In this document: in pieces, positions 2,900 through 33,139 of the stretch
Position numbering within the stretch: position 1 is the first letter of the stretch
Layout: each line of letters opens with the position of its first letter
Assembly: GCA_003218395.1 (NCBI GenBank)
Contig: QHNJ01000016.1
Span: 1-40,711, forward strand
Length of the DNA stretch: 40,711 nucleotides
Source of the DNA: Verrucomicrobiota bacterium
GTDB lineage: Bacteria > Verrucomicrobiota > Verrucomicrobiia > Chthoniobacterales > UBA10450
Direction: 5' to 3'
Notes under the pieces: model-generated
Told to the model about the DNA's origin: nothing
Database searches by the model: none
The model's input: the letters and a program-made list of their open reading frames with translations, nothing else
Program-made: the position numbers and the translations under genes

Positions 2900-4355
2900 G
2901 CCTGCCCCGTAGCCGATGATTTACTGCATCGTGATGAATCAATGCCGCGCGCCGGCCGCGCTTGGTGCTGAAACCTTCGGCGAGCATTTTCACGACGCTG
3001 TCGAATTCTTCGCGCGTGAGATTTCGATAAGGCCAGGCGGCGCGGACGAGTTCAAAGAATCTGGCTTCATCCCAATCCTCGCCGGACGTCGCCGCAACTG
3101 TTTGTTGGGCAAGAACGTCAAGCGGCTTCTCTGGGATTAGCAAACGGTCCAATTCGCCGCGTCGAACAGAACGCAGCAGCACAGCGCATTCGGCGAGTTC
3201 ATCGCGGCTCAATGGAAAGATGCGGCCCTTCGGCAAACCGCTGCGTTTATGTCCGGCGCGACCAACCCGTTGCAGCAGTGTGGCGATCGCGCGCGTGGTG
3301 CCAAGCTGGCAAACAAGATCAATTGAACCGATATCGATACCCAACTCGAGCGAAGCCGTGGCAACGAGCGCCCTTAGCTCGCCCTGCTTCAAGCGGTCTT
3401 CGGCATCCAGACGTAGCTTGGCGGAGAGACTTCCATGATGTGACGCAACCGCGTCTGCGCCGAGTAGTTCGCTCAAATGATGTGTCACGCGCTCCGCCAT
3501 CCGGCGCGTATTCACAAAAACCAAAGTGGTGCGGTGGGTCTGAATTAATTCTGCGAGGCGGTGATAAACTTCTTCCCAAACTTCGTTCGACATCACGGCT
3601 TCCAGCGGCGATTTCGGGATTTCAATCGCCAAGTCCAATTCGCGGCGATGGCCGATGTCGATGATCGCGCAATCAGGATTGCCACTTTCGTCCACTGCAC
3701 GGGTGCCAACGAGAAAACGCGCGACCTCCTCGATCGGTTTTTGCGTCGCAGACAAACCGATTCGCTGCAGCGGAGGTTTCGTTAGCGCGGCCAAACGTTC
3801 GATACTCAGCGCGAGGTGCGCGCCGCGTCGGTCATCCACCACAGCGTGGATCTCGTCCACGATCAGCGTTCGCACGTTGCTCAACATGCCGCGGCCGGAG
3901 TCGGAAGTGAGTAATAGATACAAGGATTCCGGGGTTGTGACGAGAATGTGTGGCGGCTTCTTGATGAGTGCCTGGCGCTGCGCGGCAGTCGTGTCGCCCG
4001 TCCGAACTTCAGCGCGCACGTCGATCTCGCGACCTTCTGTTTCGTGCAATGACGCGCGAATTCCGGCGAGCGGCTCCTGAAGGTTCTTGCGAACGTCGTT
4101 GCTCAACGCTTTGAGCGGCGACACGTAGACAATTTGCGTCTCGTCCGGCAATTTTGCCTCTATGCCTTCGCGAAACAGCACATCGAGCGAAGCAAGAAAC
4201 GCCGCCAGCGTTTTGCCTGAACCTGTTGGCGCAGAGATTAGCACGTGCCGGCCGGATTGAATCGCCGGCCAGCCGCGCGCTTGCGGTTGGGTCGGTGACC
4301 GGAACGTTTGCTCGAACCACCGCGCGACCGCAGGATGAAATTGAAGGGAGTGCAT
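2889..4355 (-). CDS. lhr: Lhr-family DEAD/DEAH helicase, N-terminal motor part (split gene)
   Basis: This is the RecA-like motor of an Lhr helicase. Visible motifs are Walker [10 protein letters not shown] (residues 41-49), the DEIH box (167-170), SAT (202-204) and motif [10 protein letters not shown] (362-369). The conserved [14 protein letters not shown] sits at the very end, after which the frame reads Cys-stop. In intact family members the chain continues through roughly 30-36 more residues into the [14 protein letters not shown] block, which here resumes in another frame at 2899. The ATPase motifs are complete, so the fragment could fold as a motor domain, but the accessory domains are uncoupled. 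The start ATG at 4355 gives [14 protein letters not shown], typical of the family. The gene is divergent from the OsmC gene at 4511. Confidence 0.88.
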
Positions 4356-5673: not shown

Positions 5674-5973
5674 ATGACTCAATTGCGAAACAAATCATCG
5701 AAAAGCCGGCGGTGGTCGGCCCGAGTCACACAACGCAGCAACGCCCTCGATCTTGAGCCGGAAGTTTTTAGATCGACAAACCCGAGAAGAATTGCGCTCT
5801 CGCTGAAGCGTTCGGCCAAAGCAAGCAAACGGCGCAAAGGCACGCCGTATCAATCGGCGATGTCGATGTTAAATTTCTACATCAATCGCGCCGGCAAAAA
5901 TCTTCCACAAAAGCAAAAGCGCGTTTTGGAACGAGCCAAAGACGAACTGCGTGATGTCTTTGGCCGAGCTTAA
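5674..5973 (+). CDS. DUF3175 protein
   Basis: This is a small, very basic protein of about 99 residues matching the DUF3175 pattern: a WSARVTQRSNALDLE start block, then SLKRSAKASKRRKG, SAMSMLNFYINRAGKNL and KRVLERAKDELRDVFGR. No function is known for the family. The charge and the absence of membrane or signal segments suggest a cytoplasmic, perhaps nucleic-acid-associated, protein (inference). The ATG at 5674 (MTQLRN) is preferred, but an upstream in-frame TTG at 5662 is possible. Confidence 0.8.
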   Translation: MTQLRNKSSKSRRWSARVTQRSNALDLEPEVFRSTNPRRIALSLKRSAKASKRRKGTPYQSAMSMLNFYINRAGKNLPQKQKRVLERAKDELRDVFGRA

Positions 5974-7565: not shown

Positions 7566-7662
7566 ATTTCCCCAGTTCCGGAAACGAAATGCGAGCTCTA
7601 AGTATGCCGGCTTAGGCATAGGCGCCTTGACCGTACCGCTTTGCCCCTGTTAAGCGGATGTG

Positions 7663-8769
7663 ATGAAACGGCTCCTTTGGCTCGATATCTCAAAGGGGCT
7701 GGCGATTCTCGTTGTCGCTTATTTTCATTTTTTCAGGACCTACTACCAGTACGGCGTTCTTCCGCCAGCCGACTGGAGCAACCTCGCAGGGAGCGTGCTG
7801 ACCATCCTGAGATTGGTGTGGTTCAAAGTATCGGGACTCGGTTTCCATGCCGTCGGTGTTTTCATCATCCTGAGCGGTTGGACGCTGATGCAATCAACCG
7901 CGCGGCGGGCCGAATCGGGCGCGATCGCCTGTGGTTCGTGGTATCGCGCGCGGTTTCTGCGGCTTTATCCAATGTACTGGGTCGCGCATTTCGTTTACCT
8001 GCTTTCACCTTTCGTCGCGCGTCTCGAACCGGTGGATAGCCGCATTATCCTGAGCCTCCTCGGTCTGCGGTTCATCGATATTCAGATGAACTTCATGTAC
8101 CTCAACGCGGCGTGGTGGTATTTCTCCATGCTGATCCAGTTTTACTTGATATTTCCCCTGCTCTTTTGGATAGCGCGCCGTCTTGGACCATGGCGCTTTT
8201 TGTTAATTGGGTGTGCCGCCGGATTTTTTGCCCGCTATCTGTTGCTCGTAGTTTGGCCGCAAAACGGACTGTGGGTGCTTGGCGGTTTCGCTGTTTGTCG
8301 CTTGCCTGAATTCGCGCTCGGCATGGCGCTGGCCATGTGGCACACTCGATCGACTGCGCGTGTGGAATGGTTTCTTCTCCGCGGTGCGGGGTTCGTTCTC
8401 GGATTAATCCTCTATCCCGCCGCACTGCAGCTCTATCATGGCGTCTACGATTACATTTTTGTCGATTTCGCCACCGGCACATGCTGCATGCTCGAGATCA
8501 TCGGCATCGCCGGGATCATTTCGCTGTTTCAAGGGCCCGCCAAAGTGTTCGGCGTCGTCGGCGTTTACTCTTATGGCCTCTACCTTATTCATCAACCCTA
8601 TGTAATCTGGCTCGGACTACGCATTCGCGAGCAACCAATCTGGATGTTTCTCTTGATCGCAGTGGCAACGCTCGCCGTGCTCAGCGCGTGGGGAATGCTT
8701 TTGGAAAAAGCGACCAACACGTTAGTGAACAAACTCGTCTCAGCCAGGAAAACAGCGAGCGGAACATAG
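7663..8769 (+). CDS. Acyltransferase 3 (OafA/YrhL-type) membrane protein
   Basis: This is a protein of about 368 residues starting MKRLLWLDISKGLAILVVAYFHFF, the family's N-terminal helix with the LDISKG and F-H-F features. About ten hydrophobic segments follow, ending with the YSYGLYLIHQPYVIWLGL block typical of acyltransferase family 3. These proteins move acyl groups (often acetyl or succinyl) across or onto surface polysaccharides, lipids or antibiotics. The ATG at 7663 is chosen over the adjacent GTG at 7660. The gene is alone in its orientation and divergent from the YdjM-like gene, so its acceptor cannot be inferred from neighbours. Confidence 0.85.
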   Translation: MKRLLWLDISKGLAILVVAYFHFFRTYYQYGVLPPADWSNLAGSVLTILRLVWFKVSGLGFHAVGVFIILSGWTLMQSTARRAESGAIACGSWYRARFLRLYPMYWVAHFVYLLSPFVARLEPVDSRIILSLLGLRFIDIQMNFMYLNAAWWYFSMLIQFYLIFPLLFWIARRLGPWRFLLIGCAAGFFARYLLLVVWPQNGLWVLGGFAVCRLPEFALGMALAMWHTRSTARVEWFLLRGAGFVLGLILYPAALQLYHGVYDYIFVDFATGTCCMLEIIGIAGIISLFQGPAKVFGVVGVYSYGLYLIHQPYVIWLGLRIREQPIWMFLLIAVATLAVLSAWGMLLEKATNTLVNKLVSARKTASGT

Positions 8770-8857: not shown

Positions 8858-9421
8858 ATGGCTCGAATTTCCGGCTTGGAGAGAAAGCAGGCGCCGTGGC
8901 ATTTGCGGTGGTTCTACGGAGCGATGCGCAAGATGTCCGGGAAAGATCTTACTCCGGCGAGAGTGCAGATGCGCGTGCCGGGACTCGTTTGGGGCGGCAT
9001 CGCCATGGAAGCCGGTCTCGGCCGCAAACGGCTTCTCTCCCTGCGTTATATTCAATTGGCAAAAGTACGCACCGCGGCGCGCATCGGCTGTCCCTTCTGA
9101 ATAGATATCAATTCTGCCGTGGGCAGAAAAGCTGGCTTGAGCGATGAAAAGCTGCGCGCCGTTCGCGGCGACGACATGACGTCTTCTAATGACACCGAAC
9201 GACTGGTGATTGAACTGGCTGACGCCATGGCAGAGACCCCATCGAACGTTTCCGACGATTTGTACGCACGTTTGCGCGATCAATTCTCCGAAGAACAACT
9301 ATTGCAGTTGGGAGGGCAGATCGCCTTTGAGAATTATCGTGCCCGTTTCAATCGAATCTTCAACGTCGAGAGCGACAATCTGTACACGCTGCACACAGAT
9401 CAGTCGCGAGAATCCCGATGA
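8858..9421 (+). CDS. CMD/AhpD-like protein with in-frame TGA (candidate selenoprotein, Sec81)
   Basis: Two short ORFs (8858-9100 and 9119-9421) lie in the same frame, separated only by a TGA at 9098-9100. Read through, they give one 187-residue carboxymuconolactone-decarboxylase/AhpD-like protein. The segment around the TGA reads GCPF-(TGA)-IDINSAVGRKAGLS. Relatives have a Cys at the TGA position, forming the CxxC redox pair (Cys78 and codon 81 here). Conservation continues normally after the TGA (ELADAMAETP, FSEEQLLQLGGQIAFENYRARFN). A hairpin starting 12 nt after the TGA fits a bacterial SECIS. I infer selenocysteine in a CxxU motif, probably a peroxidase or thiol oxidoreductase. The alternative is a Cys-to-stop mutation, and other genes in this window do carry nonsense codons. 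No sel genes are in view. Confidence 0.75.
9098..9128 (+). promoter_or_regulatory. UGA codon and SECIS-like hairpin
   Basis: After the TGA (9098-9100) and 11 unpaired bases, TTCTGCC (9112-9118) pairs perfectly with GGCAGAA (9122-9128) around a GTG loop (9119-9121). The loop begins 19 nt after the TGA, its first base is G, and the stem is 7 bp. These values fit the published bacterial SECIS description: short apical loop with an early G, about 16-37 nt from the UGA, just downstream inside the coding region. The structure is also coding sequence (NSAVGRKAG), so conservation across relatives is needed to prove RNA function. Confidence 0.65.
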
Positions 9422-9442: not shown

Positions 9443-9946
9443 CTAACCCTTGCTCGTCAGGCGCAGCTTTGTTTTGATTTCCTCGACAAGTTCGTGCGGA
9501 GTCCGTCCTAGCTCGATCGTTAGCACAGCCTCGGCCGGCTGCGGTTCTTCCAAATCAGCGAACTGACTTTGCAGCAACGCGGGATTCATGAAGTGTCCGC
9601 GCCTGCGCCGCGATTGCTTGGCAACGAGCGCGTAATCGCCTCGCAAAAAAACGAACTTCACGTCCGAACTCACCCGTAGGTAACCGCGATACGTTTCCTT
9701 CAACGCGGAACAAGCGAGCACTGCATTCTCTCCTGCGGCCAGATAGCGTGTGATCAACTCACGCAAGCTCTTCAGCCAGGGCCATCTGTCCTCGTCCGTC
9801 AGCGAAACGCCATGACGCATCTTCTCGATGTTGCCCGGTGAATGAAAATCGTCGGCCTCATAGAATGCCCAGTCGAGCTCTTCCGCCAGCAGTTTGTCAA
9901 TCGTAGTCTTTCCCGCTCCTGAGACGCCGAAAATAATCACGACCAC
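9443..9946 (-). CDS. gntK: Gluconokinase
   Basis: This 167-residue P-loop kinase is of full GntK length. Walker A is FGVSGAGKTT near the N-terminus, followed by DWAFYEADDFHSPGNIEKM, GVSLTDEDRWPWL and CSALKETYRGYLR, all typical of gluconokinase. It phosphorylates D-gluconate to 6-phosphogluconate in the cytoplasm. The start is a GTG at 9946 (MVVIIFG). It converges with the CMD gene and is not in an obvious gluconate cluster. Confidence 0.92.
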   Translation of the reverse strand: MVVIIFGVSGAGKTTIDKLLAEELDWAFYEADDFHSPGNIEKMRHGVSLTDEDRWPWLKSLRELITRYLAAGENAVLACSALKETYRGYLRVSSDVKFVFLRGDYALVAKQSRRRRGHFMNPALLQSQFADLEEPQPAEAVLTIELGRTPHELVEEIKTKLRLTSKG

Positions 9947-29055: not shown

Positions 29056-29184
29056 TTATTTCTCATTCTGCCTCCGAAAGAAATTCGCCGGCGAATCGCT
29101 GCAAGTGCCGGCCAACAAAAGCAACAACAGCACGCCGGCCACACGAAATGCTTGCCGATTCCGTACAAATGAAAACCCATTCAT
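29056..29184 (-). CDS. 42-residue secreted or lipoprotein-like peptide
   Basis: The reading frame MNGFSFVRNRQAFRVAGVLL continues with a run of leucines, then AGTCSDSPANFFRRQNEK and a TAA. The N-terminus is a signal-like hydrophobic segment ending in a Cys (Cys28) with an imperfect lipobox. The ATG overlaps the TetR stop as ATGA, evidence that it is translated. It may be a genuine small lipoprotein or the truncated start of a larger exported protein, such as an efflux component. Confidence 0.55.
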   Translation of the reverse strand: MNGFSFVRNRQAFRVAGVLLLLLLAGTCSDSPANFFRRQNEK

Positions 29185-29807
29185 GTTCTTCTGCCTTTCC
29201 GGGCGATGACACCGTCGAGAACGACTTTGACTACTGATGCGAAAGCGGTCTGCGGCGTCAGTCCGAGCTCTTCGATTTTCGCCGGATTCACAACTGCCTG
29301 GACCGCGCCGAGTAAAATCTCGATCAGCAGCCTGGCTGGAAGGTCCTTGCGCACGATCCCGGTTCGTTGACCCTCGACGAAAAGCTTTCCGAAAAAGCGT
29401 TCGATTAAATCGGCACGGCGGCGCTCAACAATCTTAAACACCTGCGGCGCTTTCTGCCGCATGTCGCGAACAAAGGGCGGTTTGATTTCATCCAACTCGC
29501 GTTGCGTATTGGTCAGCAGTTCATGCAACGCCACTGGGAAATCGTGTGGATATGCGCGCGTGATTTCTTCCAGGTTTGCTTCGAGGCCGGCGAACTTATC
29601 CGCCAGCACAGCCTCAAGCAGCGCGATCTTGCTGGGAAAATGCGAATAGAGCGTTTTCTTGCTGACGCCCAGCTCCTCCGCCAGATCGTCCATGGTCACG
29701 CTGCGGAATCCGTGGCTGAAAAAGTGCGCACGCGCCGCTTCCACGATGCGTTGCCGACTGGCATCGGCTGTTCGGTTTCGCGGGACCGATTTTCTCGCGT
29801 CTTTCAT
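29181..29807 (-). CDS. TetR/AcrR-family transcriptional regulator
   Basis: This 208-residue regulator has the N-terminal helix-turn-helix (RQRIVEAARAHFFSHGFRSV, TMDDLAEELGVSKKTLYSHF) and a C-terminal ligand domain typical of TetR proteins. It starts at ATG 29807, overlapping the CMD/AhpD stop by ATGA. A perfect dyad over the promoter at 30389-30416 is its likely operator. If so, it represses its own operon, and the ligand may be a redox-active or toxic small molecule (inference from neighbours). Confidence 0.9.
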   Translation of the reverse strand: MKDARKSVPRNRTADASRQRIVEAARAHFFSHGFRSVTMDDLAEELGVSKKTLYSHFPSKIALLEAVLADKFAGLEANLEEITRAYPHDFPVALHELLTNTQRELDEIKPPFVRDMRQKAPQVFKIVERRRADLIERFFGKLFVEGQRTGIVRKDLPARLLIEILLGAVQAVVNPAKIEELGLTPQTAFASVVKVVLDGVIARKGRRT

Positions 29808-30379
29808 GTCTTGGATGATCTCAAGTTCTTCCTGCTGATGTCGCAGAGCATGTCCGAGTGGATGTTCAGACCGATATTGGTCAGGTTGTAAAGATGCTCG
29901 CTGGCGATCAGCCAGACGATCTCGCAGATTTCGCGCTCGGAATAATAACGGGATAACCGAGCAAAAGTATCAGGGTGAACCTTTTTATTCTTTGTCAGCT
30001 GCGTCACATAGTCGAGTGCGGCGCGTTCTGCATCGGTAAACAGAGAGCTTATGCTGTACTGATCTAGTGCATCGAATTTGGCTTCATTGATCGACGCTTT
30101 GATCGCGAATGATCGGCCGATATCCATGCAGAAACGGCAGACGTTGATACGCGCCACCTGTTCACGGATGAGTAGAACAGTCTCCGGCGGGAGCGTCAGC
30201 TTTTTGTCCAGCTTGCCGATCTTTGCGTAGAACAGGCCAAATGCGGACGGCAAGCGCGCGCTGTGCACTTTCAGCGGTGTAAGCACTTTTCCGAATTGCC
30301 GGCGGGTAAAGTAATACGCCAGCTTCATCATCAGCCCTTTGGGCTTTTCAATTGGAGAAAGGAGCGTATTGGTATTCAT
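29804..30379 (-). CDS. CMD/AhpD-like protein with intact CxxC
   Basis: This 191-residue carboxymuconolactone-decarboxylase-family protein has the redox pair INVCRFCMDIG, then FTDAERAALDYVTQLTKN and YYSEREICEIVWLIASEH. It is likely a thiol peroxidase or peroxide-linked oxidoreductase. The start at ATG 30379 (MNTNTLLSPIEKPKG) is preferred to 30475, because a clear promoter lies between them. The leader would then be about 10 nt with no ribosome site, almost leaderless. It is a distant relative of the TGA-containing CMD gene at 8858 and shows the Cys form of the same motif. Confidence 0.85.
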   Translation of the reverse strand: MNTNTLLSPIEKPKGLMMKLAYYFTRRQFGKVLTPLKVHSARLPSAFGLFYAKIGKLDKKLTLPPETVLLIREQVARINVCRFCMDIGRSFAIKASINEAKFDALDQYSISSLFTDAERAALDYVTQLTKNKKVHPDTFARLSRYYSEREICEIVWLIASEHLYNLTNIGLNIHSDMLCDISRKNLRSSKT

Positions 30380-30388
30380 AGCCACTAT

Positions 30389-30423
30389 GGAAACTATTAT
30401 AGTATATTTAGTTTCCTTGGCAA
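30389..30423 (-). promoter_or_regulatory. Sigma-70-like promoter with TetR operator
   Basis: On the minus strand TTGCCA (30423-30418), a 16-nt spacer and TATAAT (30401-30396) form a near-consensus promoter. Over it lies an inverted repeat, GGAAACTA (30389-30396) and TAGTTTCC (30409-30416), 12 nt apart, a 28-bp dyad of TetR-operator size. A repressor bound there would cover the -10 element. The predicted start at about 30389 leaves about 10 nt before the ATG at 30379. Confidence 0.75.
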
Positions 30424-30471
30424 ACAAAATGTTCAAACAATTTTTCGATCGACTTGTCGGCTCGGTAGTCT

Positions 30472-30999
30472 TCAACGGCGTTGGCCGTTCATCCTTTTGC
30501 CCGGCGACGGGAACGCGGTTGATAGAGCGCCATATCGGAGCTCAAAAATATCCGAAGGCGCGACAAATCCGTACTGGCAATAAAGCGATTTGCTTGCAGG
30601 ACTCGGCCACAGAATGACCGCGTCAGTGCCTCGAGCGCGGCACCATGATAGCGCCTTGTTCAACAATCTCTTGCCGAGTCCCTGCCCTCGCATTTCCGGG
30701 ATGACGTAAAAGTTGGTCACGTAAGCATGAAGCTCCGGTTCGTCGTTAACTGGGTTGGGGATTTTCTCAAACAACTGCACGCAAACATGGCCGAGCACCC
30801 GCTTGCCATCGTCGAGGACCCAGCAGCGCCACGGGCAGGAGCCGGGGCGAAAACGCTTCTTCATCCAAGATGTGCATCTGCGCACAAATCGCGATTTGAT
30901 TTCGGCCACCGATTCGGTTTCGGCACGAAATCGATAGCGCATCTCGGCCAGGGCACGGCAATCGCCTGACTTTGCCAAACGGATCCGGACCCGAACCAT
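30472..30999 (-). CDS. GNAT-family N-acetyltransferase
   Basis: This 175-residue acetyltransferase starts MVRVRIRLAKSGDCRALAEM at 30999. The acetyl-CoA motif is VIPEMRGQGLGKRLLNKALS, followed by DAVILWPSPASKSLYCQYGF. The longer in-frame ORF to 31188 was rejected, since its first 63 codons lie in repeat B DNA and overlap the S9 peptidase start region. The substrate is unknown. The gene ends close to the TetR-controlled promoter. Confidence 0.85.
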   Translation of the reverse strand: MVRVRIRLAKSGDCRALAEMRYRFRAETESVAEIKSRFVRRCTSWMKKRFRPGSCPWRCWVLDDGKRVLGHVCVQLFEKIPNPVNDEPELHAYVTNFYVIPEMRGQGLGKRLLNKALSWCRARGTDAVILWPSPASKSLYCQYGFVAPSDIFELRYGALSTAFPSPGKRMNGQRR

Positions 31000-31064
31000 T
31001 GGTCGATGGTACCTGATTGGCCGATTGGTCGCTACTCGTAAACACGTGATCTGCGCTTCTGTCT

Positions 31065-31140
31065 CCCTTGGCACGCCGTAGCCTCGTGCGAAGGCGACTA
31101 TCCTCCTTGTCACGTCGTAGTCTGGCAGTTGCCGGACAGA
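31065..31140. repeat. Dispersed repeat B, tandem copies 2 and 3
   Basis: Two degenerate units follow each other: CACGCCGTAGCCTCGTGCGA at 31072 and CACGTCGTAGTCTGGCAG at 31111, each preceded by a TCCYTGG-like run. They are related to the 7517 and 38421 copies and lie just upstream of the S9 peptidase ATG. Confidence 0.55.
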
Positions 31141-31186
31141 CAGGATGACCTTGCCGCTCCGCCGCGCCTTTGTCAGGATGCAGCAC

Positions 31187-33139
31187 ATGAAGCATTTTGT
31201 TCTGGCCTGTCTCTTTCCGATGACGCTAACAGCTCAGACCATGCAGCATCTGACCAAACAGTTGGGTAAGACCGTCCTGTACGGTGACATTGCCCTTTCG
31301 CCCGAGGGCACGCATGTCGCATGGGTGCAATCGACTGCCGCAACGACGTCAAAACAGACCTACGTCCGTGAAACATCAGAAAATGGGCCGGCAACGATTG
31401 CCAAAATTCCAATCACCGGCGAGAGGACCGATTCCGATCCCGCCTGGTCTCCCGATTCGGAAACGCTCGCAGTTTTTTCGAGCCCCGGCGAGACCGAGCA
31501 GCGGCAACTCTGGACTGTGAAGGCAGACGGTTCCGATGCTAAAAAGATTACGAACCTAAAAGGATACGCTGCGCGACCTCGTTGGTCGCACGATGGGAAA
31601 CAGGTTGCATTTCTCTACATTGAAGGCGCGCACGGCGGCGGTCCATTAATGGCTGCGCCCGCGACCACCGGCGTGATCGACACCGCCATTCATAATCAGC
31701 GGATCGCCATTCTCGATATTGCCACCAGGCAGTTGCGCCAGGTTTCGCCGGCGAATCTCCACATCTACGATTACGATTGGTCGCCCGACGACACGACGTT
31801 CGTAACAACGGCGGCCCCGGGACCGGGCGATAACAATTGGTGGATCGCGCAGGTTTACACGATCGACATCGCAAAGGGTAACGCCACATCGATCTACAAG
31901 CCTTCTCTTCAAGTAGCAGTTCCGCGCTGGTCGCCGGATGGCAAGTCGGTCGCATTCATCGAAGGGTTGATGAGCGACGAAGGATTTCATGGTGGCGACC
32001 TCTTTACTATCGCCGCGAATGGCAATGACGTGCGGAACCGCACGCGAAATCGCAAAAGCTCGGTGAGTTCGCTGTTTTGGCTAACGCCGGATCGCATCCT
32101 TTTCACCGAGATAGTCGGCGGCGGAGGCGCGATCTCTGAATTGACACTCGCCAATAATTCGGTGCGCACAATCTGGAAAGGCGCAGAGGCTCTTCATGCC
32201 TTCGGTAATTTCCCTGACTTTGCCATTTCCAGGGATGGAAAACTCGCGGCCGCAGAACGCAGCAGCTTTGAAACGCCACCAGAAATCTGGGCTGGACCGA
32301 TCGGTGAATGGCGCCAGTTGACCAGTGGCAATTCCGCTCAAACTGCCACGTGGGGCAAAGCCGAGAATCTTGAGTGGACTAACGATGGCTTCAACATTCA
32401 GGGCTGGCTTCTTCCACCGCGGCAAGTGGAGTCCGACGAGAAATATCCCATGGTCGTCCTCATCCATGGCGGACCTTCCAGCGCCACGACGCCGGACTGG
32501 CCCGCTTCATTTGGAATGTCGAGAGCCATCATCGCCGCTCTCTCGTCTCGAGGTTACTACGTGCTGATGCCGAATCCTCGTGGAAGTTACGGTCAGGGAG
32601 AAGATTTCACCCGCGCTAACGTGAAAGATTTTGGCGCCGGCGATCTGCGCGATATGCTCGCCGGGGTCAATGCCGCAATAAAAAAATATCCAATCGATCC
32701 TGCGCGTCTCGGCGTGACCGGCTGGAGTTACGGCGGCTTTATGACCATGTGGACTGTCACCCAGACTAACCGCTTCCACGGCGCCGTTGCAGGTGCCGGC
32801 ATTGCCAATTGGCAAAGTTACTATGGCCAGAACTTGATCGATCAATGGATGATTCCGTTCTTCGGCGCATCAGTTTACGACGATCCCGCCGTTTACGAGA
32901 AAAGTTCTCCCATTCACTTCATCAAGAACGTCAAGACCCCCACTCTCGTCATTGTCGGCGAGCACGACGCAGAATGCCCCGCTCCGCAGTCCTACGAATT
33001 CTGGCACGCCTTGAAGACGCTTGGTGTGACGACGCAGCTCATCGTATATACCGGCGAAGGCCATCTCTTTCTAGAGCCAAAGAACCAAGCCGATCGAATG
33101 GATCAGACGGTCGCGTGGTTCGACAAATATTTGAAGTAG
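31187..33139 (+). CDS. S9-family (prolyl oligopeptidase-like) peptidase
   Basis: This 650-residue secreted serine peptidase has the signal peptide MKHFVLACLFPMTLTAQ. The N-terminal half is a WD40-like beta-propeller with repeated WSPDG/WSHDG blades. The C-terminal alpha/beta-hydrolase domain carries the catalytic triad: Ser514 in GWSYGGF, Asp594 in GEHDAECP and His626 in GEGHLF. It resembles dipeptidyl-peptidase/acyl-aminoacyl-peptidase-type exported enzymes that cleave short peptides. ATG 31187 is chosen because the signal peptide starts there, and the earlier frame is repeat B. Confidence 0.92.
   Translation: MKHFVLACLFPMTLTAQTMQHLTKQLGKTVLYGDIALSPEGTHVAWVQSTAATTSKQTYVRETSENGPATIAKIPITGERTDSDPAWSPDSETLAVFSSPGETEQRQLWTVKADGSDAKKITNLKGYAARPRWSHDGKQVAFLYIEGAHGGGPLMAAPATTGVIDTAIHNQRIAILDIATRQLRQVSPANLHIYDYDWSPDDTTFVTTAAPGPGDNNWWIAQVYTIDIAKGNATSIYKPSLQVAVPRWSPDGKSVAFIEGLMSDEGFHGGDLFTIAANGNDVRNRTRNRKSSVSSLFWLTPDRILFTEIVGGGGAISELTLANNSVRTIWKGAEALHAFGNFPDFAISRDGKLAAAERSSFETPPEIWAGPIGEWRQLTSGNSAQTATWGKAENLEWTNDGFNIQGWLLPPRQVESDEKYPMVVLIHGGPSSATTPDWPASFGMSRAIIAALSSRGYYVLMPNPRGSYGQGEDFTRANVKDFGAGDLRDMLAGVNAAIKKYPIDPARLGVTGWSYGGFMTMWTVTQTNRFHGAVAGAGIANWQSYYGQNLIDQWMIPFFGASVYDDPAVYEKSSPIHFIKNVKTPTLVIVGEHDAECPAPQSYEFWHALKTLGVTTQLIVYTGEGHLFLEPKNQADRMDQTVAWFDKYLK

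Follow-up and report, generated by a model that had tools for sequence, protein, structure and literature searches.

AhpD-like (COG2128/YciW, TIGR01926) and CMD-like selenoproteins with a CxxU motif are established families in the portions available of four papers (PMC1088965; PMC2398784; PMC9312934; PMC13188914). The AhpD-like ones are known from the Sargasso Sea and GOS surveys (PMC1088965; PMC2398784) and are listed, again in the portions available, in PMC9312934 and PMC13188914. These sources agree with the original prediction, which had treated Sec-containing CMD/AhpD-like proteins as a known class. The active site of AhpD itself consists of Glu, Cys, His or Tyr, Cys and His, of which both Cys and the last His are invariant among members, according to the available part of PMC3141380. 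The gene described here lies in the window (the whole stretch of 40,711 nucleotides that was analysed) and, judged by comparison of sequences, is very probably a selenoprotein gene, with the UGA at 9098-9100 read as selenocysteine (Sec). Because the CxxU families are established and the best named family model matches the product over its full length at a score below cut-off, the predicted protein is placed within the known AhpD-like/YciW CxxU kind as a divergent subfamily, found only in the window's genus among the genomes searched. Among the papers listed on selenoproteins in Verrucomicrobia, Udaeobacter or Verrucomicrobiota (the best 15 of 110 for one listing, one paper each for the other two), none names this gene.

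The gene is a single frame on the forward strand, 8858-9421, running from an ATG at 8858 to a terminal TGA at 9419-9421. Its sole internal stop is the TGA at 9098-9100, which falls where a CxxC motif has its second cysteine, as had been predicted. Readthrough gives a product of 187 residues before the final stop, with the internal TGA as residue 81 in the context GCPF-U-IDIN. The putative redox motif is C78-P-F-U81 (TGT CCC TTC TGA, 9089-9100, forward strand), read from the sequence and found again in the copies of the genus. The list of open reading frames contains two pieces instead, 8858-9100 (80 aa) and 9119-9421 (100 aa), the split foreseen for gene callers; automatic annotation would break the gene into two fragments.

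The assignment of the gene as AhpD-like/YciW-related relies on family matches and conservation. Pfam CMD (PF02627) matches the product at 30.4 bits, over its gathering cut-off of 23, with the match limited to residues 50-104. The best named model is NCBIfam NF053654 (GroundWater_YciW, 'YciW-related (seleno)protein'), of which the product covers 1-177 of 179 positions and which is matched by all ten members of our alignment (A1); the Sec protein scores 109.7 bits against a curated cut-off of 310, and so is outside the family proper. It is likewise outside TIGR01926 (peroxidase-related enzyme), scoring 24.2 bits against a curated cut-off of 81.8. By these family matches the predicted product is an AhpD/CMD-type protein. 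The label given originally, CMD/AhpD-like, holds in that Pfam CMD is over cut-off, but needs refining in that the nearest models, NF053654 and TIGR01926, are both below theirs and the relay Glu and His of AhpD are not conserved.

The window has a distant Cys-containing paralogue (CRFC) at 29804-30475 on the reverse strand, which lies outside the Sec group in the tree. It had been described as a second CMD gene carrying the Cys form; the Cys form is there, but the gene has no Pfam match at E 0.001 and matches NF053654 at 67 bits. Its ends overlap those of two flanking genes on its own strand, one for a TetR-type regulator (29181-29807) and the other for a GNAT acetyltransferase (30472-31188).

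A protein search of 83 genomes of the family gave matches in 27 at E 0.001, many of them solely to distant Cys relatives. Copies that keep the TGA were found in nine genomes, all of the window's genus (G000, which is the window's own, G050, G053, G063, G065, G076, G077, G078, and G080; GenBank records include QHMR01000001.1 for G050, QHPC01000238.1 for G063, QHQO01000187.1 for G076, QHRI01000337.1 for G077, and VBQC01000038.1 for G078). No relatives were found in viral_contigs. At codon 81, TGA is present in 9/9 genus copies that hold the codon and Cys in 0/9. Apart from the TGA, seven of the nine copies are open, and all seven retain the CxxU pair. Averaged over those pairs of open copies that have a finite dS, dN/dS is 0.077 before the TGA and 0.072 after it, indicating like purifying selection on both halves and bearing out the claim of normal conservation on either side. 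Silent sites behave differently around the codon: their difference, pS, is 0.549 before the TGA, 0.079 over codons 82-91, and 0.631 after. A block of 25 nt (9108-9132, forward strand), which spans the hairpin discussed below, is identical in all nine TGA-bearing copies, silent sites included; in a comparison of these copies, no other invariant run in the gene is as long. When codon order was shuffled, 25-nt invariance was reached in 1 of 20,000 trials (shuffle mean 9.5 with nine copies, 10.0 with seven). The conserved TGA and the silent-site conservation exceed chance. They also bear on whether the TGA is a nonsense mutation or a sequencing error, the downstream half being dead. Broken copies in five genomes of the genus and none in others would suit a pseudogene, but the TGA is identical in nine separate genomes, dN/dS is about 0.07 on both sides of it, and no invariant run elsewhere in the gene equals the hairpin block in length, which together make this explanation very improbable.

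Outside the genus, 25 of 387 genomes sampled across the phylum have a match at E 1e-12, and among the matches listed an internal stop is confined to the window copy. The phylum sample holds few members of the window's own family, for which the search of 83 genomes is the test. The column of codon 81 could be located in 25 distant relatives (L025-L027, L092-L098, and 15 more remote ones; L099 was left out, as the column is not covered), and it is Cys in all 25, encoded by TGC in 18 and TGT in seven, and never Trp. The column is thus TGA or Cys in every copy located, as expected at the outset. The first three, L025-L027, are from Proteobacteria, Candidatus Sacchlamyda (Chlamydiota), and Gammaproteobacteria. 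The tree unites the seven Sec copies (100/99) at the end of a long stem but does not resolve their place among the Cys relatives, where long branches meet.

Constraints on the bacterial SECIS (bSECIS) in the available part of PMC13188914 are a loop of 3-9 nt, a stem of 4-16 bp, a G in the first two loop positions, a distance of 16-37 nt from the UGA, and an MFE of -7.5 or lower. The candidate bSECIS of the present gene (9112-9128, forward strand) has a perfect 7-bp stem, TTCTGCC (9112-9118) with GGCAGAA (9122-9128), and an apical loop GUG (9119-9121), with 11 nt between TGA and stem and 18 nt between TGA and loop. The hairpin and its bacterial SECIS geometry, both proposed originally, are thus confirmed: a loop of 3 nt with G first and then U, a stem of 7 bp, a distance of 18 nt, and an MFE of -9.1 all lie within those limits as given in that part of the paper. 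The candidacy of the element draws on its geometry under these constraints and on silent-site conservation.

The energy of the hairpin, -9.1 kcal/mol within 43 nt and -8.4 kcal/mol for the 17 nt alone, was rejected as evidence. In the 43-nt context the fold is not significant (z -0.49, with 54 of 200 shuffles folding equally well), and the z of -2.80 for the bare 17 nt (4 of 200 shuffles as good) is post hoc, since the stretch was chosen for being a hairpin. In one genus copy (G080), the best fold of the 43 nt is another hairpin. The hairpin fold alone is weak evidence for Sec. Similar hairpins follow many TGAs: among the 77 in the window that have at least 50 open codons before and at least 40 after, 14 are followed by a bSECIS-like hairpin with an energy of -5 kcal/mol or lower and nine by one of -7.5 or lower, the TGA at 9098 being counted in both, and on the contig with the sel genes the count is 7/48. 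Being so frequent (14/77 and 7/48), such hairpins were rejected as a scan for further Sec genes. By eye on the sequence contexts, 9098 is alone among the hairpin-bearing TGAs in having a CxxU context. A TGA at 5675 (forward strand) has a UxxC context, and its readthrough product is without a Pfam family at E 0.1.

The stem is invariant in the nine genus copies, without compensatory change, and hence offers no covariation; silent-site conservation is therefore the strongest evidence for a SECIS. The expectation that the hairpin would be conserved in relatives was borne out by the identity of the block in 9/9 TGA copies. These copies score 68.6 to 83.4 bits with a covariance model of the element. 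Within the genus the model has an extra match in G069 (C364:776-857, L130; 25.3 bits, E 0.0013), where the only protein match is distant (E 5.8e-5) and the match may represent another element or chance; there are weaker matches also in G080 and G077. The hairpin sequence of the genus was found in none of the 25 Cys relatives, and one of them (L054) has a hairpin that combines the loop G with an energy of -7.5 kcal/mol or lower. Total lack of hairpins in the Cys relatives, an expectation we considered, is not borne out: hairpins of other sequence are found at the corresponding place in L027 (7 bp, loop CCA, -7.3), L100 (7 bp, -6.4), and L054 (6 bp, -9.4), so that the presence of a hairpin alone is not diagnostic. 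With the covariance model (27 sources), the Cys relatives score up to 26.9 bits (L027, E 2.3e-5), followed by L025 at 18.3, L096 at 13.1, and L026 at 12.9; the score of L027 is partly due to shared coding sequence. The L027 hairpin (3235-3286, in a gammaproteobacterial Cys relative with CPFC, codon TGT) is a perfect 7-bp one with loop CCA at the place of the SECIS, and may be either a fossil SECIS or a product of chance.

The hairpin bears as well on whether the locus encodes two proteins, the first ending at the UGA and the second starting at a GTG at 9119, perhaps by translational coupling, as the two pieces in the list of open reading frames might imply. This has a very slim chance of being right: relatives have a single, undivided Cys protein to which both halves align, the GTG that would serve as the restart forms the loop of the hairpin, and UGA is used likewise in two other genes of the genus, selD and one for a molybdopterin oxidoreductase, described next.

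The Sec machinery, whose presence in the source genome was a natural check on the original prediction, is there in full. The window's genome (G000) is 87.79% complete in 335 contigs, and one of these (C166) carries tRNA-Sec, selD, selA, and selB together, all over cut-off. The tRNA-Sec (selC) scores 61.7 bits against a cut-off of 47 and is called tRNA-SeC with anticodon TCA by ARAGORN; selA scores 451.2 bits, selD 355.6 bits with an in-frame TGA, and selB 292.8 bits counted with a neighbouring piece. While selB and selC were searched in the window's own genome, selA and selD were searched across 35 genomes of the genus. selA is over cut-off in 30 of the 35, and being genus-wide its presence does not discriminate. 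selD is over cut-off in 30/35 also, with one TGA in the matched stretch in 28 of the 30, the other two being without the N-terminal part. In the window's genome (G000:C166:1360-2283, L017), the TGA is near the N-terminus, in the context SSCAG-U-ASKLS. The selenophosphate synthetase (selD) is thus probably also a selenoprotein in the genus.

The machinery speaks against reassignment of the UGA, that is, its decoding by a standard tRNA, as Trp for instance, with no selenium involved. No support for this was found, and it is the least probable of the explanations weighed: tRNA-Sec and SelB are present in the genome, the column is Cys and never Trp in the 25 relatives located, and TGA is an ordinary stop too, ending five of the ten open reading frames checked in the window, the selenoprotein gene included.

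Matches to a formate-dehydrogenase-like molybdopterin oxidoreductase that contain an in-frame TGA number 20, in 19 of the 35 genus genomes, all below the Fdh-alpha cut-off; the window's genome, which is incomplete, yielded none with a TGA. Two copies, L159 (G065:C116) and L160 (G052:C195), have the context RI-U-H and a 7-bp hairpin just downstream with loop GGUCU, and the domain of L159 is that of a molybdopterin oxidoreductase. This enzyme is a likely second client of the Sec pathway.

The neighbors of the gene are conserved, as judged by profile matches and by the loci of the genus, and are given as context with no functional link implied. Directly upstream is an Acyltransferase_3 gene (7660-8769, forward strand), found in this position in eight of the nine TGA-bearing genomes; in the ninth (G080), the Sec gene is at a contig end. 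Downstream and convergent is a gluconokinase gene of the GntK type (9443-9946, reverse strand). A search for the gluconokinase in the 35 genus genomes gave 23 loci: five are beside a TGA copy, two have remnants in place (G070 and G071), seven have both neighbors in convergent orientation and nothing matching the gene in between, three have the neighbors diverging, and six are uninformative, the neighbor or the gene being out of range.

Damaged copies are found in five genomes of the genus. In G065 there is a one-base deletion, in G050 a 74-base gap and a one-base deletion, and in G070 (C70, L037), G071 (C61, L040), and G074 (C422, L038) only pieces remain, with codon 81 uncovered. Since the remnants in G070 and G071 adjoin the gluconokinase as intact copies do, the decay there occurred in place. 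Decay as a consequence of loss of the Sec pathway is unsupported: all five genomes have selA over cut-off, which means that the Sec gene was lost singly. The oxidoreductase with the in-frame TGA is present in three of the five (G050, G065, and G070, and not G071 or G074), and it is plausible that the pathway is retained for it. With the gene intact in some genomes, decayed in others, and missing from the rest, and selA mostly kept, the genus offers a small natural system for the loss of single selenoproteins from a pathway that persists.

In the proposed mechanism, SelB carrying Sec-tRNA-Sec would bind the mRNA hairpin at 9112-9128, and ribosomes would read the UGA at 9098-9100 as selenocysteine. 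We infer this SelB-dependent insertion of Sec at residue 81 from the machinery, the geometry of the hairpin, and the silent-site conservation. The C78-x-x-U81 pair would then cycle between the selenol/thiol and the selenenylsulfide forms, a step less certain than Sec insertion. A CxxU pair is typical of redox use. In line with this, CxxU entries are found among the selenoproteins of PMC1088965, in the part available. The role of the protein is the least certain step; tentatively, it would act as a reductase, on peroxides or on disulfides (thiols), or else as an AhpD-like redox adaptor, these being the leading candidates.

An AhpD-like peroxidase would be expected to have CxxC, the invariant His, and the relay Glu (PMC3141380, in the part available). 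The present protein has Cys-x-x-Sec, and the relay residues are replaced: the site of His is Asn in all ten rows of alignment A1, and that of Glu is Gln in the seven Sec copies and, among the three Cys rows, Ser in two and Thr in one. AhpD's ordinary relay is therefore absent, also in the Cys relatives of A1, and the replacement of Glu and His by Gln and Asn in the Sec protein counts against an ordinary AhpD mechanism. The missing relay, together with a weak match to the debrominase Bmp8 (PDB 6ohi, E 0.014), raises the somewhat unlikely possibility that the chemistry is other than peroxide or thiol reduction, as in Bmp8; this alternative bears on function alone and leaves the reading as a selenoprotein intact. 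The CxxU pair in all seven open copies points the other way, as do better matches to AhpD-like proteins of solved structure, 2gmy (E 2e-7) and PA0269 (2o4d, E 1.5e-4), and 2ijc (1.2e-4) and 7xw1 (1.3e-4) are also matched by sequence. A more far-reaching proposal, which we consider unlikely, is that a Sec-only YciW/AhpD-like branch exists in one Verrucomicrobia genus, in which Sec would offset the missing Glu/His relay, and that the gene is discarded whole and never converted from Sec to Cys, as might befit a niche function needing selenium chemistry. Against Sec replacing the relay is the fact that the Cys relatives in A1 are without the relay too.

For the specialist, the gene is a solid extension of known selenoproteins rather than a surprise. 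Through it, a Verrucomicrobia genus represented here solely by metagenome-assembled genomes gains a well-supported subfamily of selenoproteins and a use for selenium. The depth labels of 20 to 40 cm on five relatives suggest that the habitat is soil.

The AhpD-like selenoproteins of the Sargasso Sea and GOS surveys, likened here by description in the portions available of those papers, share with the Verrucomicrobia protein the CxxU motif, an AhpD/YciW-type domain, and a UGA followed by a bSECIS. They differ in that the surveys are marine or mainly marine, and the Verrucomicrobia protein reaches only 24.2 bits against the cut-off of 81.8 for TIGR01926. NF053654 has the full-length match in common with the Sec protein, but at 109.7 bits, below 310, the latter is no member as NCBI defines the family. 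The CMD-like selenoprotein (PF02627, CxxU; PMC13188914, and 'AhpD-like 2' in PMC2398784, in the portions available) shares Pfam CMD over cut-off and CxxU; in the Verrucomicrobia protein, by contrast, the Pfam model matches residues 50-104 only. With the solved AhpD-like peroxidase-related proteins PA0269 (2O4D) and Atu0492 (2gmy), sequence similarity is detectable around CxxC, whereas the Verrucomicrobia protein has Asn for the relay His, Gln for the relay Glu, and, as predicted, Sec for the second Cys.
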